Positions 7,754 through 37,899 of a DNA stretch of 39,939 nucleotides are shown one piece after another. The notes under the pieces were generated by a model that saw nothing but the letters and a program-made list of their open reading frames with translations, searched no databases and was not told the DNA's origin. Location: positions 1-39,939 of the forward strand of contig LCOG01000004.1 in NCBI GenBank assembly GCA_001001705.1, written 5' to 3'. Source of the DNA: Parcubacteria group bacterium GW2011_GWA2_47_26 (GTDB lineage Bacteria > Patescibacteriota > Patescibacteriia > GWA2-47-26). Made by a program: the position numbers and the translations under genes. The stretch's first letter is position 1. Each line of letters begins with the position of its first letter.

Positions 7754-7849
7754 AAACAGGAAAGATTGATTGTTCACAAAAATTCCTCGTCATCGGGTGA
7801 TAAATGAGGGGGGTGCAACTACCATCCCACATCCAACCCACACTATCTA

Positions 7850-7875
7850 TTCTGCAATTCTGCGGAATCGCAGAA
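7850..7875. repeat. Palindromic repeat, TTCTSCGATTC family
   Basis: TTCTGCAATTCTGCGGAATCGCAGAA. Confidence 0.8.
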
Positions 7876-7939
7876 CGAGCAAAGTGGGTGGAAGGCGTGG
7901 AGGGTAGGCGGATATTATGGTATACTAAAAAATAAAACT

Positions 7940-8212: not shown

Positions 8213-8228
8213 CCCCCCTCACAAAGTG

Positions 8229-8254
8229 TTCTGCGATTCTGCGGAATCGCAGAA
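8229..8254. repeat. Palindromic repeat, TTCTSCGATTC family
   Basis: TTCTGCGATTCTGCGGAATCGCAGAA. Confidence 0.85.
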
Positions 8255-8364
8255 TGCCAAACCGCAACCGCTGCCAAACATCCTATTACCATAAACCCCC
8301 TGATAGAGTGTGAATAGTCCGCATATTGCAGATGAATATTTAATATGGTACGCTATAAGTACAT

Positions 8365-25390: not shown

Positions 25391-25555
25391 TAGACCTGTT
25401 GCTTAATAACCTTTTGGCTGTAATTCTCATATTTTGGCTGCGGCTTTGCCAAAGTTTCTCAACATATATATACGCCGTATATGCTTCAAAACTTTGGCTT
25501 CGCCTCGCTCAAAATCTGAAAATTTCGCTACAAAAATTATTAAGCAACAGGTCTA
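25391..25555. mobile_element. MITE-like element A
   Basis: Perfect ends TAGACCTGTTGCTTAATAA / TTATTAAGCAACAGGTCTA. Confidence 0.8.
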
Positions 25556-26760: not shown

Positions 26761-28110
26761 ATGATAATAAAAAAACTAATACCAAAAAAATTATTGTCGC
26801 TCTATCATCTTGTGCTGGCCTATTTGGCTGCCAGTTTTTACGGCCGTCCTTCAGATAGAATAATTGTAATTGGGGTAACAGGCACCAATGGCAAATCGAC
26901 CACGGTTAATTTAATCGCCAAAATATTAGAGGAGAGCGGAGCGCGTGTTGGCTTTACCTCAACAGTAAATTTCAGAGTCGGAGATAGGGAATGGTTAAAT
27001 GACGAAAAAATGACCATGCTTGGCCGTTTTAAATTGCAAAAGTTATTGCGCGATATGGTTAAGGCAGGATGTAAGTATGCCGTGATTGAGACATCATCAG
27101 AAGGTATTGTCCAGCATCGTCACGGGGCCATTAATTACGATGCGGCTGTATTTACGAATCTGACCCCTGAACACATTGAATCTCATGGCGGATTTGAAAA
27201 CTACAAAAAGGCCAAAGGGGAGTTGTTTAAAAAATTAAAAATTAAAAATGTAAAATGTAAAATAATTGGCGGGCAGTGCGTGCCGAAAGTTAGCGTGGTC
27301 AACGGCGATGATCCGCATGCAGAGTATTTTTTAAGTTTTCCAGCGGATGAGAAAGTGATATATGGAATAGAGCATTCGGCATCTCCTCAAAGCTTAGCTT
27401 TTTTGCACTCAAAGCTAAGCTTTTCTCGATGCCTCGCACAAAATGTGTATGTGGATGCTACGGGTTCACAATTCGAAATAGATGATGTAAAATTTAGGCT
27501 AAAATTGATGGGAAAGTTTAACGTGTATAATGCTCTTGCCGCAATCGCGTCAGCTTACGCGCTGGGTATTGATTTAAAAATGTGCAAAAGTGCTCTTGAA
27601 AAAGTGCAGGGCATTCCGGGACGTCTGGAGCGCATTGACGAGGGGCAGCCTTTTACTGTTATTATTGATTACGCGCCTGAACCTGCGTCTATGCAAGCGC
27701 TGTATGAAGTGGTTGGCATGTTGCCCCATCAACGCATTATTCATGTTTTAGGTTCTACCGGAGGCGGTCGTGATGTAGCGCGTCGTCCGATTTTGGGAGG
27801 CATTGCCGCACGCAACGCAGATTATGTTATAGTAACTAATGAAGATCCTTATAATGATGATCCGCAGACGATTATTGATGATGTAGCGCGGGGGGCGGAA
27901 GAGGCCATGCGTCAGGTATCAGGTATCAGGTATCAGGCGGTACTGAAAATTTTAGATCGTAAAGAGGCGATTGCCAAAGCGCTATCGCTTGCCCAGTCTG
28001 GTGATCTTGTTTTGATCACGGGCAAAGGTGCAGAGCAGGCCATGGTCGTAAAGCATGGCCAGAAAATACCGTGGGACGATCGTGTTGTCACACGCGAATT
28101 GCTCCACTAG
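26761..28110 (+). CDS. murE: MurE-like UDP-N-acetylmuramyl peptide ligase
   Basis: GVTGTNGKSTTVNLI; VIETSSEGIVQHRH; GIPGRLERID; STGGGRDVARRP. Confidence 0.9.
   Translation: MIIKKLIPKKLLSLYHLVLAYLAASFYGRPSDRIIVIGVTGTNGKSTTVNLIAKILEESGARVGFTSTVNFRVGDREWLNDEKMTMLGRFKLQKLLRDMVKAGCKYAVIETSSEGIVQHRHGAINYDAAVFTNLTPEHIESHGGFENYKKAKGELFKKLKIKNVKCKIIGGQCVPKVSVVNGDDPHAEYFLSFPADEKVIYGIEHSASPQSLAFLHSKLSFSRCLAQNVYVDATGSQFEIDDVKFRLKLMGKFNVYNALAAIASAYALGIDLKMCKSALEKVQGIPGRLERIDEGQPFTVIIDYAPEPASMQALYEVVGMLPHQRIIHVLGSTGGGRDVARRPILGGIAARNADYVIVTNEDPYNDDPQTIIDDVARGAEEAMRQVSGIRYQAVLKILDRKEAIAKALSLAQSGDLVLITGKGAEQAMVVKHGQKIPWDDRVVTRELLH
27231..27263. repeat. Heptamer tandem repeat inside murE
   Basis: AAAATTA AAAATTA AAAATGT AAAATGT AAAAT. 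Confidence 0.75.
27387..27425. repeat. 39-bp palindromic element inside murE
   Basis: TCAAAGCTTAGCTTTTTTGCACTCAAAGCTAAGCTTTTC; homologous to 37448-37486 in prs. Confidence 0.8.
27913..27937. repeat. Heptamer repeat inside murE
   Basis: CAGGTATCAGGTATCAGGTATCAGG. Confidence 0.8.
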
Positions 28111-28212
28111 ACCCGTTGCTTAATAACCTTTTGGCTGTAATTCTCATATTTTGGCTTCGCCTCGCTCAAAATCTGAAAATTTCGCTACAAAAATTATTAA
28201 GCAACAGGTCTA
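28108..28212. mobile_element. MITE-like element B, internally deleted relative to A
   Basis: TAGACCCGTTGCTTAATAA...TTATTAAGCAACAGGTCTA; first TAG is the murE stop codon. Confidence 0.8.
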
Positions 28213-28237
28213 GTCTTAAAGCAACGTGTCTAAATAT

Positions 28238-29041
28238 ATGCGAAAAGTGTTTGGAATTCTAGGCGTGTTTGCGCTTTGTTTTGTTGCGATTATTTTGCTT
28301 GCTAAACTCAAAATTGGCATTTTCGCAACTAATTTAGTGAACCCGGTCATAAGACCGATTTTAGCAGGATTATCTTCCGCGGAAGATTGGGTGACACATA
28401 CAATTTCTCTGCCTTTCAAAGCAAAAACGCTGGCTTTAAAAGTTGACGAATTGGAAGGTCTGACGCGGCAGCTTACCGCAGAAAATGCGCGATTTCTGGA
28501 GCTCCAAAACGAAAATGTACAGTTACGGCGAGAACTTAATTTTATTGAACGCATCCAGTATCCGTTTGCCTTAGCCCGTGTTATAGGCAGGGTTAAAGAA
28601 GCCGGGGGAGATTTTTTTATTCTAAATCGCGGAGGGAGTGACGGCGTTGCAGTTGATCAGCCAGTGGTCAGTGATGGTATTTTAATTGGCAAAATAATAC
28701 GAGTTCAAAAATCTGTAAGCATTGCCGTTCCGCTTACGACTTCGGGCCTGAAAACTGCCGCCATGTTTACGGAAAACACAGCAACAGACGGGATTGTTGA
28801 GGGGGAATTAAATGTCAGCCTCAAGATGTCTCTTATATCGAAAGACATTACTCTTATCAATAATATGATAGTTATTACTTCAGGGTTAGAACAGACGATT
28901 CCTCGCGGTTTTGTTATTGGAAAAATAGAGCGGATTGAATCCAAACCGAATGATCTGTTTCAGACTGCGTATTTAAAAATACCTACCTCTTTGCAGAATA
29001 CAACTTTAGTCAATATTATTTTATACCATGCGATTGATTAA
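28238..29041 (+). CDS. mreC: Rod shape-determining protein MreC
   Basis: Coiled coil, then ARVIGRVKEAGGDFFILNRGGSDGV; track start 28226 (GTG) also possible. Confidence 0.88.
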   Translation: MRKVFGILGVFALCFVAIILLAKLKIGIFATNLVNPVIRPILAGLSSAEDWVTHTISLPFKAKTLALKVDELEGLTRQLTAENARFLELQNENVQLRRELNFIERIQYPFALARVIGRVKEAGGDFFILNRGGSDGVAVDQPVVSDGILIGKIIRVQKSVSIAVPLTTSGLKTAAMFTENTATDGIVEGELNVSLKMSLISKDITLINNMIVITSGLEQTIPRGFVIGKIERIESKPNDLFQTAYLKIPTSLQNTTLVNIILYHAID

Positions 29042-29546
29042 ATCAGCAAAAACAGCGTTTCTTATATTACTGGGCAGTTTATTGCTTTTGGCGCTTACAG
29101 TAAGCAGTAGGTCAATGATAAATTTTCTGCTTATTAGCGCATTGTTTGTTTTGATTACAACTGGCGCGCGGCAAGCATATGTTTGGACGCTTATAGCCGG
29201 AGTTGTTCTTGAAACCATTTCGCCATTTCCGTCGTTTGTTTCTATGGCCACTCTACTCTTTACTGTTTTTTGTGCGCATTTTTTAATTAAAAATTATTTG
29301 AGCCATCGGACATTTTTAGGAATAATAGCTGGTGCTGTGCTTGCTAGTTTGATTTATGAAATTAGCACTTTCTTGTTTTCTCGCTTGGTTAATTTGATTT
29401 TCCGCGGTTTTACGCCAGCTCTAGATTTTAGTTATGGAATTTTTATGGTTCTGCGCTTGCTTTGGACGACACTTGTCTTCGCCATTTTATTTTTAATTGT
29501 GCAAAGATTGTTTCCTAGGGTACGCGGTACGCTTTTGGCATCATAA
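29028..29546 (+). CDS. MreD-like membrane protein
   Basis: Hydrophobic 172 aa, overlaps the mreC end. Confidence 0.6.
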   Translation: MRLIKSAKTAFLILLGSLLLLALTVSSRSMINFLLISALFVLITTGARQAYVWTLIAGVVLETISPFPSFVSMATLLFTVFCAHFLIKNYLSHRTFLGIIAGAVLASLIYEISTFLFSRLVNLIFRGFTPALDFSYGIFMVLRLLWTTLVFAILFLIVQRLFPRVRGTLLAS

Positions 29547-29552
29547 ATTTAT

Positions 29553-29957
29553 ATGCCCGACTTCGAAATCTTGCCACATACAGCTGATTTGAGAATAAAA
29601 GTGTATGGCAATTCCAGAGCCGAGCTTTTTCAAAATGCATTGCGCGGAATGTTTGAGAGCATTGCGCCGACATGGAAAGCGGGCGCCGGTGTTCAGCATG
29701 AGATTGCTGTTGTTTCCACTGATCAGAATGCCCTGCTTATTGATTTTCTTTCCGAAGCATTGAGCCTTTCTGATATCAATGATGAGGCATATACTGATAT
29801 TGAAATTACGGAATTCACAAACACAGAACTGCGCGGCACGCTCATTGGAAAATCAATAACACGGTTTGCCATTGAAATTAAGGCGGTTACGCATCACGGG
29901 ATTGATATAAAAAAAATAGGGGAGAGATGGGAGACAGAGATTGTGTTTGATGTATAG
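29553..29957 (+). CDS. Archease
   Basis: EILPHTADLRIKVYG...ALLIDFLSEALSLSD. Confidence 0.92.
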   Translation: MPDFEILPHTADLRIKVYGNSRAELFQNALRGMFESIAPTWKAGAGVQHEIAVVSTDQNALLIDFLSEALSLSDINDEAYTDIEITEFTNTELRGTLIGKSITRFAIEIKAVTHHGIDIKKIGERWETEIVFDV

Positions 29958-30118
29958 ACCTCTTGCAAAACAATATGTCCTACTGCAATTGCGATCTTTC
30001 GGCTGCAAATCGTGCAGCGTCAGTCATCGTATACTGTGTATACGTTTCCTCGCGCTTCACGATTTTCGCTCGAAATCTCACAATTTCGTTGACGAATAAT
30101 TATTATGCAAGAGGTCTT
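29955..30118. mobile_element. MITE-like element C, divergent member of the A/B family
   Basis: TAGACCTCTTGCA...TGCAAGAGGTCT; right half aligns with element A. Confidence 0.75.
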
Positions 30119-31573
30119 ATGAATAACATCACGCGCGAAACACTCAAAAAGGTAAACAATTATGTGTGGGAGATTCCGAAATCGTTTCGGGCGGATATGC
30201 GCGCGCCGGCGCGTATTTATGCTTCCAGCCAAATGCTTGAGGAAATTTTCCGCGATCGTTCGATGTGGCAGATCATTAATGTCGCCACCTTGCCCGGCAT
30301 TCAAAAGGCGGCGATCGCTATGCCCGATATTCATGAAGGCTACGGATTTCCGATCGGCGGGGTGGCGGCAACGGCTACTCACGAAGGCGGCGTAATCTCG
30401 CCGGGCGGCATTGGCTACGATATCAATTGTGGAGTGCGTCTCCTGGTTTCTGATTTTGGGCTTAATGAAATCAAGCCTCATCTCGAAAATCTCGCGGCCG
30501 CAATGTTCCATGCGGTTCCCTCCGGCGTGGGACGCGGAGGAAAATTAAAATTCAGCGAACAAGAATTAAATCATGTGCTCGCAAGAGGCGCCGCACGCAT
30601 GGTAGAATTGGGATACGGCGCACAAGATGATCTTATACACTGCGAAGAAGGGGGCTCCATGGCTGGCGCGGATCCGGAACATGTTTCGAGCCGCGCAAAA
30701 TCACGCGGCAGAGATCAACTCGGCACCCTTGGTTCTGGCAATCATTTTCTTGAGATGCAAGTCGTGGATGAAGTTTTGCTCCCCGATGTAGCGGCAGCTT
30801 TTAGTTTATCAAAAGGTGCGATCGCTGTAATGATCCATTGCGGATCGCGCGGACTTGGACACCAAACCTGTACGGATTATGTGCGTTTAATGCTTCCGCA
30901 GCTTGCGCGATGGGGGATTGTGCTTCCTGACCGCGAACTGGCTTGTGCACCATTTGATTCGCCTGAAGGACAAAAGTATTTTTCAGCCATGGCTGCAAGC
31001 GCTAATTTTGCCTGGGCAAATCGTCATTTAATCGCGCATAATGTGCGTGAAGCATGGAATAGCGTGCTTGGCCGCATAGATAGATTACGTACGATCTATG
31101 ACGTAGCGCATAATATTGGAAAACGAGAAACGCACCAAATTGACGGCAAAGAGGTCGAGGTTATTGTCCATCGCAAAGGCGCCACGCGCGCATTTGGATC
31201 TGGCCGGCCGGAAATTCCGGAAGTGTATCGTGCTGTAGGTCAACCGGTGTTCATTCCCGGAACAATGGGCACGGCCTCTTATGTGCTCGTTGGCACGCAA
31301 ACTGGCATGGAAGCCGCGTTTGGAACTTCTTGTCATGGCGCTGGCCGGCGCATGTCCCGAGCGCAAGCCAAACGTACTGTTCGCGGATCTGAATTGCGGC
31401 AGGCGCTTGAAGCGCGAGGTATTGTAGTGCGTTGCGAATCAGATCCCGGCCTTGCGGAAGAAGCGCCGGAAGCGTATAAAGATGTGGAGAGCGTTGTTGA
31501 TATAGTTGATAAGGTCGGATTAGCCAAAAAAGTCGCTCGTCTTAAGCCGATTGCGGTAATTAAAGGAGGATAA
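30119..31573 (+). CDS. rtcB: RtcB RNA ligase
   Basis: MPDIHEGYGFPIGGVAAT; GGIGYDINCGVRLL; QLGTLGSGNHFLEMQ; start trimmed from 29963. Confidence 0.96.
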   Translation: MNNITRETLKKVNNYVWEIPKSFRADMRAPARIYASSQMLEEIFRDRSMWQIINVATLPGIQKAAIAMPDIHEGYGFPIGGVAATATHEGGVISPGGIGYDINCGVRLLVSDFGLNEIKPHLENLAAAMFHAVPSGVGRGGKLKFSEQELNHVLARGAARMVELGYGAQDDLIHCEEGGSMAGADPEHVSSRAKSRGRDQLGTLGSGNHFLEMQVVDEVLLPDVAAAFSLSKGAIAVMIHCGSRGLGHQTCTDYVRLMLPQLARWGIVLPDRELACAPFDSPEGQKYFSAMAASANFAWANRHLIAHNVREAWNSVLGRIDRLRTIYDVAHNIGKRETHQIDGKEVEVIVHRKGATRAFGSGRPEIPEVYRAVGQPVFIPGTMGTASYVLVGTQTGMEAAFGTSCHGAGRRMSRAQAKRTVRGSELRQALEARGIVVRCESDPGLAEEAPEAYKDVESVVDIVDKVGLAKKVARLKPIAVIKGG

Positions 31574-31615
31574 TAAAATTTAATAATTTTTAACAGTCCC
31601 ATAGTCCATAGTCTT

Positions 31616-32914
31616 ATGAATGAACAGCATCATCATCACAATGAATTTTACGGTCTCGGCATTGCACCCGCGCTTTTGCAGATATTGAGCCAGCTAAATT
31701 TTAAAACACCCACTCCAATTCAGGCGCAGGCTATCCCCATCGGGATTGAAGGTAAAGATATTGTAGGAATTGCGCAAACCGGCACCGGAAAGACTCTTGC
31801 ATTTGGTATTCCGGTCATTCAACGCTTGGCCCAAATAAAAGGCAAGGCGCTTATTGTATTGCCTACCCGCGAGCTTGTGCTTCAGGTTGAAGAGGTGCTT
31901 CGCACCATAGGAAAGCGCATCAGATTGAGAACCGCGGTGCTGATCGGGGGTGCGCCTATGGGACCGCAATTGCACTCGCTTTCTGCCAACCCGCATATCA
32001 TTATCGCAACCCCCGGGCGTCTCATTGATCATCTTAATCAAAAAAATATACGTCTCAACAACGTTTCAATTGTGGTATTTGATGAAGCGGATCGCATGCT
32101 TGATATGGGATTTGCGCCGCAGGTAAAAAAGATTTTTCAAGCATTGCCAGACGCTTCAAAGCGGCAAACTATGCTGTTTTCAGCAACTATGCCGCCTGAA
32201 ATCATGGAGATTGCGGTGACACACATGAAACTGCCCGTGCGTGTTGAAATCGCGCCGTCCGGAACGACCGTTGAGCGGGTTACTCAAGAGCTTTTTATTG
32301 TGCCCAGAGATCAGAAGCTCGGCCTTCTTAAAAAAATGCTGGAGACATATCACGGTTCAGCTCTTATTTTTACCCGCACAAAACATGTCGCAAAAAAAAT
32401 TGTGAGACAGATCCGAGCGCTTGGATTTAGCGCCGCGGAAATCCATTCCAACCGAACGCTTAGCCAGCGAAAAGACGCACTGCAAGGATTCAAATCAGGG
32501 AAATACCGCGTACTTGTGGCAACGGATATTGCCTCGCGGGGGATTGACGTAGTAGGTATTGAACTAGTGCTTAATTTCGATCTGCCGGCTACCTCGGATG
32601 ATTACGTACATAGAATCGGGCGCACCGCGCGCGCCGGCGCGGTTGGCCATGCCATCACCTTTGCGATGCCGGGGGAACAACGCGAGGTTCGCGCGATAGA
32701 GAATTTGATTAGAAAACGTTTGCCGATCTCCAAACTTCCTGAACTTCCGAAACTCAATATTCCCGAATTTTTTCCGTCGTCTGAACGCCGATTACACTCA
32801 ATTTCCCCTCCTTTTCGAGGAGGGGTTAGGGGTGGTGGAAGCGGGCGTCCCTACCATCCCCGTCGTCCGCGCAATCCGCATCAGCGTTTTCATCCCCGCC
32901 ATCCCCGTCGCTAG
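31616..32914 (+). CDS. DEAD-box RNA helicase
   Basis: AQTGTGKT, VFDEADRMLDMGF, SATMPPE, HRIGRTARAG. Confidence 0.97.
   Translation: MNEQHHHHNEFYGLGIAPALLQILSQLNFKTPTPIQAQAIPIGIEGKDIVGIAQTGTGKTLAFGIPVIQRLAQIKGKALIVLPTRELVLQVEEVLRTIGKRIRLRTAVLIGGAPMGPQLHSLSANPHIIIATPGRLIDHLNQKNIRLNNVSIVVFDEADRMLDMGFAPQVKKIFQALPDASKRQTMLFSATMPPEIMEIAVTHMKLPVRVEIAPSGTTVERVTQELFIVPRDQKLGLLKKMLETYHGSALIFTRTKHVAKKIVRQIRALGFSAAEIHSNRTLSQRKDALQGFKSGKYRVLVATDIASRGIDVVGIELVLNFDLPATSDDYVHRIGRTARAGAVGHAITFAMPGEQREVRAIENLIRKRLPISKLPELPKLNIPEFFPSSERRLHSISPPFRGGVRGGGSGRPYHPRRPRNPHQRFHPRHPRR
32805..32836. repeat. Palindromic repeat inside the helicase C-terminus
   Basis: CCCCTCCTTTTCGAGGAGGGGTTAGGGGTGGT; related intergenic sequence at 210-246. 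Confidence 0.75.
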
Positions 32915-32995
32915 CTATACTCTTTCTTAAAAGGTTTGATGTTTTGTGCACGAAACAGTAGGATAGGGGAATATGGTGCAAGTGTTGATTAATAT

Positions 32996-33745
32996 ATGTC
33001 CGAATACTACACGCCACAAAGAGTCAAAGGTTTATATGATCCGGCATCGGTCGAGCCGTTTAAGCTATCGCGATCAAAAATTGATTTGTTTTTAAATTGC
33101 CCACGCTGTTTTTATTACGATCGCAAGCTTGGCGTCGGCCGGCCGCCGGGCTTTCCGTTTGCGTTGAACTCCGCCGTTGACCATCTTTTAAAGCTCGAGT
33201 TTGATATTCATCGTGTGAATGGCACAAAGCATCCTTTGATTGAGAAGTATGGCGTGGATGCGCGGCCGGTACCGCATGAAGATTTGGATAAGTGGCGACA
33301 TAATTTTACTGGTATTCAATATTTGTATAAGCCGACCAACCTACTTATATTCGGCGCGATTGATGACCTTTGGCAAAATTCCAAAGGCGAATATATTGTC
33401 GTGGATTATAAGTCCACCGCAAAGGCCGAAGAAATAACAGAGCTTGATAAAGATTGGCATGAAGGATATAAAAGGCAAATGGAAGTTTATCAATGGCTAC
33501 TGCGGAAAAACGGCTACAAAGTTTATAACACCGGATACTTTGTTTACTGCAACGGTCAAACGGATCGCAAGGCCTTTGACGCTAAGCTTGAATTTGATAT
33601 CACCTTAATTCCATATAATGGTGATGATTCTTGGGTAGAGAAAACTATAGTAGAAGCTCATGAATGTTTAAATGGCGATAAAATTCCTAAAGCCAATTCG
33701 AATTGTGATCACTGCAATTATGTGAAGGCGATAAATAGTAAATAA
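32996..33745 (+). CDS. RecB/Cas4-like PD-(D/E)XK nuclease with cysteine pairs
   Basis: LNCPRCFYYDRKLG; YIVVDYKSTAK; SNCDHCNYV. Confidence 0.75.
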   Translation: MSEYYTPQRVKGLYDPASVEPFKLSRSKIDLFLNCPRCFYYDRKLGVGRPPGFPFALNSAVDHLLKLEFDIHRVNGTKHPLIEKYGVDARPVPHEDLDKWRHNFTGIQYLYKPTNLLIFGAIDDLWQNSKGEYIVVDYKSTAKAEEITELDKDWHEGYKRQMEVYQWLLRKNGYKVYNTGYFVYCNGQTDRKAFDAKLEFDITLIPYNGDDSWVEKTIVEAHECLNGDKIPKANSNCDHCNYVKAINSK

Positions 33746-33808
33746 TTGTGGAAACTTCGTCCGCGCAGATTGCATAATTTTAACGCTTACCATACACTCT
33801 CCTAAAAC

Positions 33809-33842
33809 TACACTCTCTCACTCGCACGACTGGGAGAGTGTA
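33809..33842. repeat. Palindromic repeat CACTCTCCCAGTCG family, copy 1 (degenerate left arm)
   Basis: TACACTCTCTCACTCGCACGACTGGGAGAGTGTA. Confidence 0.8.
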
Positions 33843-33862
33843 GAATACGGGAAGTAAATTTT

Positions 33863-34432
33863 ATGAATATAAAATCCGCGACATTTGTAAAAGGCGTGGT
33901 GGGCACTGATGAGATTTTGGAGGATGGCACTCCGCAGATTGTTTTTGTCGGCCGTTCAAATGTAGGAAAGTCTAGCGTTATTAATTCTTTAGCCAACCAG
34001 AAAAAATTGGCCAGAACCAGTTCTTTTCCCGGACGTACTCAAGAGATAAATATATTTTTGATAAACAAATCTGTATATTTAGTTGACCTGCCGGGGTACG
34101 GGTTTGTCAAGATTCCGCAAAAAGAACGGGAGCGGATCCAAAAAATGATGCAATGGTATCTATTTAGATCAGCTTATAAGCTGAAAAAAGTAGTACTCAT
34201 TATAGACGCAAATGTAGGCCCGAGTTCGGCCGACTTGGAAATGGTTCGCAGTTTGGAAGAGCAAGAAAATAATATCGTTGTGGTCGTCAATAAAATAGAC
34301 AAAATAAAAAAATCGGAGCATGAAGCGAAGATTCAAAAAATTAAAGCCACATTTGGAGACCGCAAAATTATCTTTTATTCCGTAGAAAAGAAAATCGGCG
34401 TAACCGAGCTAACTGACGAAATTCTAAAATAA
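33863..34432 (+). CDS. engB: Ribosome biogenesis GTPase YsxC/EngB
   Basis: FVGRSNVGKSSVINSL; SFPGRTQEIN; VDLPGYGF; NKIDK. Confidence 0.95.
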   Translation: MNIKSATFVKGVVGTDEILEDGTPQIVFVGRSNVGKSSVINSLANQKKLARTSSFPGRTQEINIFLINKSVYLVDLPGYGFVKIPQKERERIQKMMQWYLFRSAYKLKKVVLIIDANVGPSSADLEMVRSLEEQENNIVVVVNKIDKIKKSEHEAKIQKIKATFGDRKIIFYSVEKKIGVTELTDEILK

Positions 34433-35724
34433 TGAAAACCGATGTTAAAACAGATATTCTATGGGATGTTGTTGTTATTGGCGGCGGACCATCGGGCATG
34501 ATGGCGGCAGGCAGGGCGGCGGAACTTGGCCGCAAGGTTTTACTTCTTGAAAAGAATCCAACGCTTGGCAAAAAACTTCTCATTACCGGCGGTGGCCGCT
34601 GTAATTTAACTAATAATAAACCTGATATTCGTACGATGCTTAGTCAGTATAAAGGCAATGCCCGATTTCTTTTTTCTGCTTTTTCGCAGTTTAGCGTAGA
34701 AGATACACTTAATTTTTTTCATCGGCGCGGGGTGCCGACTGTTGAGGAGGAAGAGGGGAGGGTTTTTCCTGTCTCAAATAAAGCACAGTCGGTTTTGAAC
34801 GCACTGACACATTATATGAAAGATGGCGGCGTGCGTATACAAACCAATACCGCAGTTGCCGGTTTATCTATTGATGCCGAAACTGAATATATTGCTATTC
34901 GGATTAAGGGTGCACTTGCCAACAAGGCGGGCAAAACAGAAATAATCGCGAAGTCGTGCATTGTTGCTACTGGAGGAGTTTCGCATCCAGAAACTGGCTC
35001 AACTGGTGAAGGATTTGCATGGCTTAAAAAAATTGGCCATACTATTATTGATAACGATTTTGCGCTCGTCCCCATCGCGCTTACCGATGCTTGGGCAAAG
35101 AAATTAAGTGGATCAACGCTTAAGGATATTAAGCTTACCGCATTTCAAAATGGACAGAAGCAAGAAACTTACAATGGTATATTACTTTTCACGCATTTTG
35201 GGATCAGTGGCCCCACGGTCTTGAATATGAGTAAAGCGATCCGGGAGCTCTTGCAATACGGCGAAGTTGCGATCGCGCTTGATGTATTTCCAAAATTTGA
35301 CCATAAAGAGCTCGAGGAGCAGCTTCAAACATTACTCGTTGGTAAGAGCAACAAGAAGTTGAAAAATACTTTGGACAAGCTTATTCCTGCCGCACTCGTC
35401 TTTGCAGTGCTAAAACTTGCTAATGTAGATGGCGAGACGCCCAATCATAGCGTGCGCCGTGAGGATAGAATAAAATTAGTATCGCTGATGAAGAGGATCC
35501 CGCTTCATGTTCAAGAACTGCTTGGGGCGGATAAAGCAGTTATTTCCTCGGGGGGCGCAGCACTCAAAGAGGTGAATTTTAAAACCATGCAATCGCGCCT
35601 TGTGCCTAATCTCTATTTGATCGGTGACGCCCTTAACATCGATCGCCCCTCGGGCGGTTATAGCCTTCAGCTATGTTGGACAACGGGTTTTGTGGCGGGA
35701 GAAGTAGCAGCTAAAGTGGAATAA
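34432..35724 (+). CDS. NAD(P)/FAD-dependent oxidoreductase (HI0933/BaiN family)
   Basis: VVIGGGPSGMMAAGRAAELG; LLITGGGRCNLTN; GDALNIDRPSGGYSLQLCWTTGFVAG. Confidence 0.94.
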   Translation: MKTDVKTDILWDVVVIGGGPSGMMAAGRAAELGRKVLLLEKNPTLGKKLLITGGGRCNLTNNKPDIRTMLSQYKGNARFLFSAFSQFSVEDTLNFFHRRGVPTVEEEEGRVFPVSNKAQSVLNALTHYMKDGGVRIQTNTAVAGLSIDAETEYIAIRIKGALANKAGKTEIIAKSCIVATGGVSHPETGSTGEGFAWLKKIGHTIIDNDFALVPIALTDAWAKKLSGSTLKDIKLTAFQNGQKQETYNGILLFTHFGISGPTVLNMSKAIRELLQYGEVAIALDVFPKFDHKELEEQLQTLLVGKSNKKLKNTLDKLIPAALVFAVLKLANVDGETPNHSVRREDRIKLVSLMKRIPLHVQELLGADKAVISSGGAALKEVNFKTMQSRLVPNLYLIGDALNIDRPSGGYSLQLCWTTGFVAGEVAAKVE

Positions 35725-35760
35725 AAAAGACTGTAACTAAGACGGCGTGGCATTAGAACG

Positions 35761-35793
35761 TCACTCTCCCAGTCGCACGACTGGGAGAGTGTA
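35761..35793. repeat. Palindromic repeat CACTCTCCCAGTCG family, copy 2
   Basis: CACTCTCCCAGTCG-CA-CGACTGGGAGAGTG, perfect 14-bp arms. Confidence 0.85.
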
Positions 35794-35827
35794 TGGTAGT
35801 GGAAATTATTCGTACTAACTATAAGAT

Positions 35828-36304
35828 ATGCGGATTAATAATTTTCTAAAACTAATCTTTGCTATAACTGTATCAGAGCTTGCCGGTATCATCGGATCGG
35901 TGTTTACGGTTTCTGCGATCCAGAATTGGTACGCTAGTCTTGTAAAGCCGGTGCTAAATCCTCCGGCTTGGGTATTTGGTCCGGTATGGACAACGCTGTA
36001 TTTGCTCATGGGTATTGCCGTGTTTTTGGTCTGGCGATATGGGCTGAATCGCAAGGATGTAAAAATTGCACTTTTCATATTCGGCGTTCAGCTGATTTTG
36101 AATGCCCTTTGGTCAATTATCTTTTTTGGTCTGCATAGTCCTTTGTGGGCTTTTGTTAATATTATTTTGCTCTGGCTCACGATTCTTTGGACCATTATTG
36201 TATTTTTTAAAATTTCACGCCCGGCCGCCTACCTTTTTCTACCCTATATTCTATGGGTCAGTTTTGCCATGTACTTGAATTACGCAATTTGGATTTTAAA
36301 TTAA
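35828..36304 (+). CDS. tspO: TspO/MBR family protein
   Basis: WYASLVKPVLNPPAWVFGPVWTTLYLLMGIA. Confidence 0.94.
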   Translation: MRINNFLKLIFAITVSELAGIIGSVFTVSAIQNWYASLVKPVLNPPAWVFGPVWTTLYLLMGIAVFLVWRYGLNRKDVKIALFIFGVQLILNALWSIIFFGLHSPLWAFVNIILLWLTILWTIIVFFKISRPAAYLFLPYILWVSFAMYLNYAIWILN

Positions 36305-36319
36305 CGGGGTCGTTAGTTT

Positions 36320-36958
36320 ATGTTCAAAAATCGTCAGGATGCGGGGAAGAAGTTAGCGGAAGCGCTTGGCGCATATAAAAACGCACGGGATACTATTGTT
36401 TTGGGGTTGCCGCGAGGCGGGGTAGTTATTGGATATGAGGTTGCTAAAGCTTTGGGGTTGCCGCTTGATATTGTGGTGCCGCGAAAAATTGGCGCGCCGG
36501 GAAATCCGGAGTATGCTATTGGGGCGATTACGGAGACGGGTGAGGCTATTTTTAACGAGGAGGAAGTTGGGCAGGTAGATAAAGAATGGCTAAAACAAAA
36601 AATGAAAAAAGAAAAGAGGGAAGCGCAAAGGCGACTCACCATATACCGTCCCGGTCCATCACCACAAGTTGCTGGCAAAACTGTTATTCTTGTAGATGAT
36701 GGGGTTGCTACCGGGTATACAATGCGGGCGGCCGTAGCTTCCGTGAAAGCACGTAAACCAGTCAAGATTGTTGTGGCAGTGCCTAATGGCGCGAATGATT
36801 CTATGCGTGAATTGCGGCGCGAAGTAGATGAAGTTATTGCGCTAGAAATACCGGATGTGTACTTCGCTGTCGGCGCACAGTATGAAGAATTTTCGCAAAT
36901 ATCAGATGAAGAGGTGATCGAGCTTTTGCAGAAAACGCAGTCTCATAATCCCTCCTAG
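36320..36958 (+). CDS. Phosphoribosyltransferase family protein
   Basis: GLPRGGVVIGYEVAKAL; VILVDDGVATGYTM. Confidence 0.92.
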   Translation: MFKNRQDAGKKLAEALGAYKNARDTIVLGLPRGGVVIGYEVAKALGLPLDIVVPRKIGAPGNPEYAIGAITETGEAIFNEEEVGQVDKEWLKQKMKKEKREAQRRLTIYRPGPSPQVAGKTVILVDDGVATGYTMRAAVASVKARKPVKIVVAVPNGANDSMRELRREVDEVIALEIPDVYFAVGAQYEEFSQISDEEVIELLQKTQSHNPS

Positions 36959-36993
36959 CCTCCCATTATCTTAAAGGGAGTAAGATTGATCGC

Positions 36994-37899
36994 ATGTTTA
37001 TTTTTTCAATTGCCACTGCATATCATGATTTTGCCGGAAAGCTTGCCAAGCAAGCGCATCTTAAAGTTGGTCGCGTTGAGTTTAAAAAATTTTCCGATGG
37101 CGAGATCTATGTACGAGTAGGGGAGTCTGTGGCACAAAAAAAAGTGTATGTTGTGGGTACGACCGCGCCGCCGGCGGACAATTTAATAGAAATGTTGCTC
37201 TTAGTGGATGCGCTAAAAACGGCAAAGGCGCTGCATATTACCGCGATCATTCCGTATTTTGGCTACGGAAGGGCGGATCATTTGGTTGAGAGCGGCGAGG
37301 CGCTATCAGCAAAATTGATGGCAAATCTTTTACATTGTGCAGGGGTTCGTCGTGTGGTTGCGATTGATCTACATAGTCCACGGGTGGAGAAATTTTTTAC
37401 AATGCCGCTTGTACATGTAAGAGCGCAGGAATTGTTAGCGCGTACGATCAAAGCCGAGCTTTTTAACGATCAAAGCTCGGCTTTGACGATCGTAGCCCCA
37501 GACCATGGCGCAATTCCACTGGCAAAACGAATGGGGCGGTTATTGCGCGCGCGAGTCGCATGGTTTGAAAAAATTCGGCCACAACATAATGTTGCGCAAC
37601 TTGGCGCATTGCACGGAGATGTTGCAGGTAAAATTGCCGTGCTTGTTGATGACATGATTGATACAGCGGGAACTATTGCGGAAGCGGCAAACCAGCTTAA
37701 GCAACATGGCGCAAAGAAAATTATTGTTGCGGTCACGCATGGTGTCCTTTCCGGGCCGGCTCTTGAGCGTCTCAAACAAACGCCGATAGACAAAGTTATT
37801 ATTACCGACACACTTCCCAATGTTTCTCAAAAAAAATTCAACAAGCTTAGAGTTGTTTCAGTAATACCCTTACTAGCGGAAAAATTTAGACGGATATGA
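36994..37899 (+). CDS. prs: Ribose-phosphate pyrophosphokinase
   Basis: KFSDGEIYVRV; PYFGYGRAD; AVLVDDMIDTAGTI. Confidence 0.93.
   Translation: MFIFSIATAYHDFAGKLAKQAHLKVGRVEFKKFSDGEIYVRVGESVAQKKVYVVGTTAPPADNLIEMLLLVDALKTAKALHITAIIPYFGYGRADHLVESGEALSAKLMANLLHCAGVRRVVAIDLHSPRVEKFFTMPLVHVRAQELLARTIKAELFNDQSSALTIVAPDHGAIPLAKRMGRLLRARVAWFEKIRPQHNVAQLGALHGDVAGKIAVLVDDMIDTAGTIAEAANQLKQHGAKKIIVAVTHGVLSGPALERLKQTPIDKVIITDTLPNVSQKKFNKLRVVSVIPLLAEKFRRI
37448..37486. repeat. 39-bp palindromic element inside prs
   Basis: TCAAAGCCGAGCTTT-TTAACGATC-AAAGCTCGGCTTTGA, perfect 15-bp arms. Confidence 0.85.

Follow-up and report, generated by a model that had tools for sequence, protein, structure and literature searches.

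The analysed stretch, hereafter the window, comprises 39,939 nucleotides of contig LCOG01000004.1 of Parcubacteria group bacterium GW2011_GWA2_47_26. Among its forward-strand genes are murE (26761–28110; NCBIfam TIGR01085, 361 bits) and prs, which encodes ribose-phosphate diphosphokinase (36994–37899; NCBIfam TIGR01251, 317 bits). Both genes contain a short palindromic element that very probably belongs to a compact form of the REPINs, which are hairpin-forming doublets of repetitive extragenic palindromic sequences (REPs) associated with REP-associated tyrosine transposases (RAYTs). The original prediction of a 39-bp palindrome at 27387–27425 in murE and at 37448–37486 in prs agrees with the DNA letter for letter. 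Two corrections apply. Each 13-bp half comes close to a perfect palindrome in its own right, which makes the conserved unit a double palindrome, and no pairing occurs between the outermost TC...TC of the murE copy. This AAAGC-type unit, to which no strand is assigned, reads AAAGCTTAGCTTT - TTTGCACTC - AAAGCTAAGCTTT in murE (core 27389–27423) and AAAGCCGAGCTTT - TTAACGATC - AAAGCTCGGCTTT in prs (core 37450–37484). The variable dinucleotides TT/AA and CG/CG amount to two base pairs swapped on both sides with pairing intact, and the change is therefore compensatory, as had been proposed. Folded as single-stranded DNA, the murE copy forms one hairpin of 13 bp (−11.5 kcal/mol, z −4.7) and the prs copy one of 15 bp (−16.4 kcal/mol, z −7.6), each more stable than any of 200 shuffles. 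The element is read in different frames, giving QSLAFLHSKLSF within the Mur ligase middle domain region of MurE (PF08245, residues 39–265) and KAELFNDQSSAL immediately ahead of the IVAPDHG strand of Prs. Since the two proteins are unrelated, the frames differ and more copies exist in this genome and its relatives, shared protein ancestry is ruled out, as the original prediction had argued.

The window belongs to a genome of 842 kb in 26 contigs that is about 80% complete (G000). It contains five AAAGC-type elements, which bears out the expectation of further copies: besides those in murE (C4:27389) and prs (C4:37450), they lie at C5:112734, C13:9742 and C18:7801, the last in a gene that is MurG-like by sequence inspection, and all five are inside predicted genes. 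A scan for double palindromes of any arm sequence recovered 30 elements in G000, 37 in 830 kb of the same-family genome G001 (about 170 kb of which were left out) and four in 398 kb of G002, another genome of this family, compared with 0–1 in shuffled genomes. In each element, a 13-bp half consisting of a 5-bp arm, a 3-bp center and the inverted arm is followed by a spacer and then by the inverted half. This arrangement of 5-bp arms around a 3-bp center recurs in every arm family, so that each REP is an imperfect palindrome, and the two inverted REPs with their spacer pair into a single hairpin of 13–15 bp, which is the structure that defines a REPIN. The arm families are GTGRC (23 elements in G000), RAAGC, AGGRC, RAGGA, GTCAC and GAGRC. 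All of them vary at one or more paired positions with pairing nearly always preserved, as befits a dispersed multicopy repeat. RAAGC elements were found in only three genomes among 57 relatives, namely G000, G001 and G037, the last of which has nine. Chance or a shared coding constraint has virtually no standing as an explanation. A degenerate 37-mer search of the window retrieved only the two sites (a third match being the prs copy on the opposite strand), 100 dinucleotide shuffles of the window yielded no match, and the hosts are unrelated proteins read in different frames; the copy number in this genome and its relatives by itself excludes chance.

Palindromic halves of 13 bp are also what a protein-binding site might look like, either a matS-like organizer site or a lox-like 13-8-13 site of a tyrosine recombinase. 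The GTGAC copies indeed recall the matS site, which is GTGACRNYGTCAC, and many spacers are 8 nt long, resulting in a lox-like layout of 34 bp. We nevertheless regard a role of this kind as very improbable, because the arms differ among families and the elements are linked to RAYT genes (see below). For matS and its protein MatP, no PF06303 match was obtained in the assembled 80% of G000, and the centers of the elements are mostly YWR, not RNY. A lox-like site was rejected because the spacers, mostly 8–11 nt long, range from 5 to 13 nt and differ in sequence.

The spacers are informative in another respect. Identical copies of 34–36 bp stand in unrelated flanks, which suggests that element and spacer together form the copied unit. 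Moreover, 15 pairs of elements with different arms have a spacer 7-mer in common, whereas 500 shuffles gave 2.35 such pairs on average and never more than 8; the 15 pairs are not independent, and several of the spacers are palindromic themselves. The sequences thus hint at arms that change jointly and spacers that are retained. The 8-nt spacer GAGCGTGA occurs with RAAGC, AGGRC and GTGRC arms across three genomes (G000 C13:7600; G001 C10:18201, C18:44007 and C18:44208; G002 C6 part 237640). Same-spacer elements also occur as pairs in one predicted gene with both members in frame: C2:57983 and C2:58085 in G000 are 102 bp apart, and C18:44007 and C18:44208 in G001 are 201 bp apart and identical over 35 bp within unrelated flanks.

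With a looser spacer range than in the scan above, a simple codon-usage gene caller places 21 of the 32 elements of G000, and 29 of the 39 from the analysed part of G001, entirely within predicted genes, where the reading frame continues through them. Since about 85% of either genome is coding, this amounts to no preference for genes, only to a weaker avoidance of them than in classical REPINs. In Pseudomonas fluorescens SBW25, for example, only 14 of 1,067 abundant 16-mers overlap genes (PMC3116915). The mainly extragenic location that is usual for REPINs is therefore not shared by these elements, but since this location is a usual property of REPs and stands outside the structural definition, we file them as a REPIN variant. 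Their position is also difficult to reconcile with a functional RNA hairpin, such as a terminator, attenuator or stability element, maintained by selection in transcripts. The hairpins are strong, and some intergenic copies extend their pairing into T-rich and A-rich flanks in the manner of a terminator; most copies, however, are gene-internal with read-through, the host genes are unrelated, orthologs without elements exist and the palindromes have no fixed orientation relative to the gene. We consequently give hardly any weight to an RNA function.

Comparison of orthologs points to insertion of the elements into existing genes. The clearest case is the MurG-like gene at C18:7801, whose orthologs in G001 and G002 are both 11 residues short exactly at the element. 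Good evidence for an insertion likewise comes from the MurE sequences: G002 MurE is without the element segment, the G000 protein is 13–15 residues longer at this site than four relatives, and the segment measures 37 residues in G000 compared with a median near 28 in 29 relatives (mostly 21–33, with one of 37 and one of 40). Clean gaps in several other genes run in both directions; for example, the G000 ortholog of the gene with the element at G001 C18:61505 is 12 residues short. More generally, among insertions of at least 8 residues between G000 and G001 orthologs, 18–20% have strong hairpin DNA, compared with 1–4% of control stretches.

The same sites appear to be used repeatedly. Where G000 element sites could be aligned to a G001 ortholog, G001 has a different insert at 7 of 10 (counted by eye), the background expectation for a G001 insertion equally close being 4.6% per site (binomial probability about 5e-8). 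Several of these inserts have inverted repeats of the type CCTCTCCC...GGGAGAGG, and the prs gene of G001 bears AHTFSPHLYPLPTGVGRVRAN at the element site. Some of the seven do not exceed gene controls as hairpins, so that for these a palindromic origin is suggested by the type of sequence. In a gene that is PolX-like by inspection (74% identity), the elements of G001 and G002 occupy the same site with different arms, GAAGC and GTGGC, respectively. We interpret this re-use as probable selection for permissive loops.

Elements of several arm families are physically associated with genes for Y1 transposases. The only PF01797 (Y1_Tnp) gene of G000 takes its stop codon from a GTGGC element and contains a GTGAC element in frame; upstream of it, at C5:67858, lies a decayed copy whose spacer AAAGCTTT is that of two identical dispersed copies. 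In G001, the RAYT gene on C25 is flanked by inverted AGGGC copies, and the one on C10 has GAAGC elements within and after the gene. The RAYT gene of G037 ends at an AAAGC element. Three further RAYT loci (L280, L264 and L252) have AAGGY elements at their borders, and the respective genomes contain 5, 14 and 2 copies of these; two of the dispersed copies are in long reading frames that by eye resemble arginyl- and glycyl-tRNA synthetases. Altogether, the arms at RAYT genes match dispersed copies in six genomes (G000 and five others), and a cognate RAYT was found for the GTGRC, AGGRC, RAAGC (in G001 and G037) and AGGY-type families. Over 95 RAYT loci, element density is 0.145/kb near the gene and 0.025/kb farther off, a difference of about six times.

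The RAYT proteins themselves score above the PF01797 cut-off and have an invariant NHxH motif and conserved Tyr columns, as expected for Y1 transposases of the HUH type. In the RAYTs of G000 and G001, the internal elements precede the HuH motif. The only NCBIfam match of the proteins is NF047646 (REP-associated tyrosine transposase). The structure predicted for the L280 protein (predicted local distance difference test score, pLDDT, of 92) has 4er8, a complex of the Escherichia coli RAYT with a REP hairpin, as its sole fold match in the PDB below an E-value of 0.001 (E = 1.1e-4), with a template modeling (TM) score of 0.65 by target length. A phmmer search with the RAYT against PDB sequences and a search of PHROGs returned no match. 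The relatives of these proteins are mostly from Patescibacteria, which, like the size of the genome, points to a placement of the host in that group.

Taken together, the elements are very likely compact REPINs, probably moved by a cognate RAYT, that survive in tolerant protein loops. Several observations count against this interpretation. The RAYTs reach only 33.6 and 32.2 bits, compared with the NF047646 cut-off of 80, and thus fall short of equivalogs of that family; judged by sequence, they appear to be divergent members. Only 11 of 82 elements have GTAG or CTAC at a distance of up to 10 nt, so that most of them are missing the canonical GTAG foot, even though the GTGG arms of some GTGRC copies match GT[AG]G. 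In Prs, a clean insertion of 13 residues was sought and not found: the segment has 29 residues, compared with a median of about 25–26 in relatives, the net gain is about 4 residues, also relative to Bacillus subtilis Prs, and the loop at this site is variable. The 10–13 extra residues predicted at the element were not recovered in Prs, which because of its small net gain is no proof of insertion and taken alone suggests one only weakly. Transposition itself is suggested at the level of proteins, by the comparison of orthologs with and without elements. Finally, no RAYT matching the AAAGC family is present in the assembled ~80% of G000. A detectable element lies near only 12 of the 95 RAYT loci, so that the association with elements, strong in some RAYTs, does not extend to all of them.

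The last two points would fit orphan palindromic elements of the kind of Rickettsia palindromic elements (RPEs) or miniature inverted-repeat transposable elements (MITEs), which are mobilized by a mechanism other than a RAYT and for which RAYT genes are ordinary insertion targets. It is also in line with such an origin that ordinary genes host most elements and that the RAYTs of G000 and G001 bear elements in their own frames, just as ordinary targets do. In several genomes, however, RAYT genes stand between inverted copies whose arms are specific to that genome, and we therefore consider orphan elements unlikely. The original prediction had noted a resemblance to RPEs. This holds for the behavior, as mobile-looking palindromes are found in frame within genes, including essential ones, in both cases, but not for the identity: RPE-1 inserts are longer than the present elements (PMC3733652), and an assignment to REPIN/RAYT systems is preferred since the elements themselves border cognate Y1 transposase genes.

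As in the REPIN/RAYT (TnpAREP) systems described by Bertels and Rainey (2011; PMC3116915), an inverted REP pair and its spacer form one hairpin with compensatory changes, a Y1 transposase gene is bordered by the repeats and several families coexist in a genome. The present elements differ from these in being shorter (34–39 bp), with 5-bp stems and 3-nt loops, in the lack of a general GTAG foot and in their mostly intragenic location. Marinomonas REPtrons have short perfect 5-bp stems and those of Stenotrophomonas a 3-nt loop (PMC8266576), sizes like those observed here, although their GTAG motif is not general in our elements; atypical REP classes without this motif exist (PMC6006769). Intragenic GTAG and CGTC REPs are read in frame in known genes, and the recB genes of two Xanthomonas species carry distinct REPs at approximately equivalent positions (PMC3733652), but most of the present elements have neither of these tags. 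A dedicated transposase is lacking for CGTC REP families, CGTC-type RPEs among them (PMC3733652). REPs in frame inside the transposase gene are known from TnpAREP subclass 2.4, or RAYT group 4 (PMC6006769), and are common to our RAYTs, a likeness in this trait that implies no class assignment; the position of the elements ahead of the HuH motif in G000 and G001 is a point of difference from that subclass.

In the mechanism that we favor, two inverted 13-nt REPs, each with a 5-bp stem and a 3-nt loop, would fold together with their spacer as one hairpin of single-stranded DNA, which the cognate RAYT of the Y1/HUH family most likely recognizes. Action on a single-stranded hairpin is expected because the TnpAREP proteins of Marinomonas and Stenotrophomonas recognize and cleave their cognate REPs as single strands (PMC8266576). 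The enzyme would then copy or move the element to new sites, with insertion presumably proceeding via single-stranded DNA. Copies may persist in genes where the protein loop is tolerant and the frame of the element is open, and such inserts could be nearly neutral. For the AAAGC family, the enzyme responsible was presumably one resembling those of G001 and G037 that has been lost, is unassembled or acts across families. A bolder extension, which we offer as a tentative possibility and consider rather doubtful, is that all arm families form one lineage in which the four 5-bp arms shift with RAYT specificity while the spacer is kept, with genes as a main reservoir, loops re-used and new peptides routinely written. 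If so, the palindrome at an orthologous site would vary from genus to genus, and coevolution of RAYT and REPIN would add peptide segments to essential enzymes.

Other repeats occur in the window and the genome. Long imperfect inverted repeats at 25391–25555 and 28106–28214 flank the rodA-murE pair, the second beside the end of murE, and are identical over 63 bp (25493–25555 = 28150–28212). Several further, unrelated hairpin families are also in frame in G000 genes, where they encode peptides such as SNFAxQNLETS, PPLRLRGG and CHPERSEGS (examples at C5:87333–88212, C2:30529–32410, C1:28442–30500 and C2:34262–36395). A separate palindrome family, TCTGCGATTC-GCGC-GAATCGCAGA and variants, lies at 160–184, 325–348, 1161–1184, 7849–7876 and 8228–8255 of the window and is also present in G001 and G002. 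Hairpins of the form CACTCTCCCAGTC-GCAC-GACTGGGAGAGTG are located at 33803–33853 and 35754–35804, with more copies at C14:21585 and C24:2286.

In a limited literature search that covered few subscription journals, RAYTs or REPINs were not reported from Patescibacteria. The elements constitute a RAYT-linked, compact REPIN family that is mobile-looking, mostly intragenic and mostly without a GTAG tag. RAYT-REPIN systems are thereby extended to reduced genomes of the Patescibacteria type, in a compact and largely intragenic form, which appears to lengthen essential enzymes in frame by about 12–13 residues (Prs, with its smaller net gain, differing in this respect). Through the matching arms in six genomes, the paired genomes offer a natural test of the coevolution of RAYT and hairpin, and likewise of whether palindromes regularly supply new peptide segments to the proteins of these organisms.

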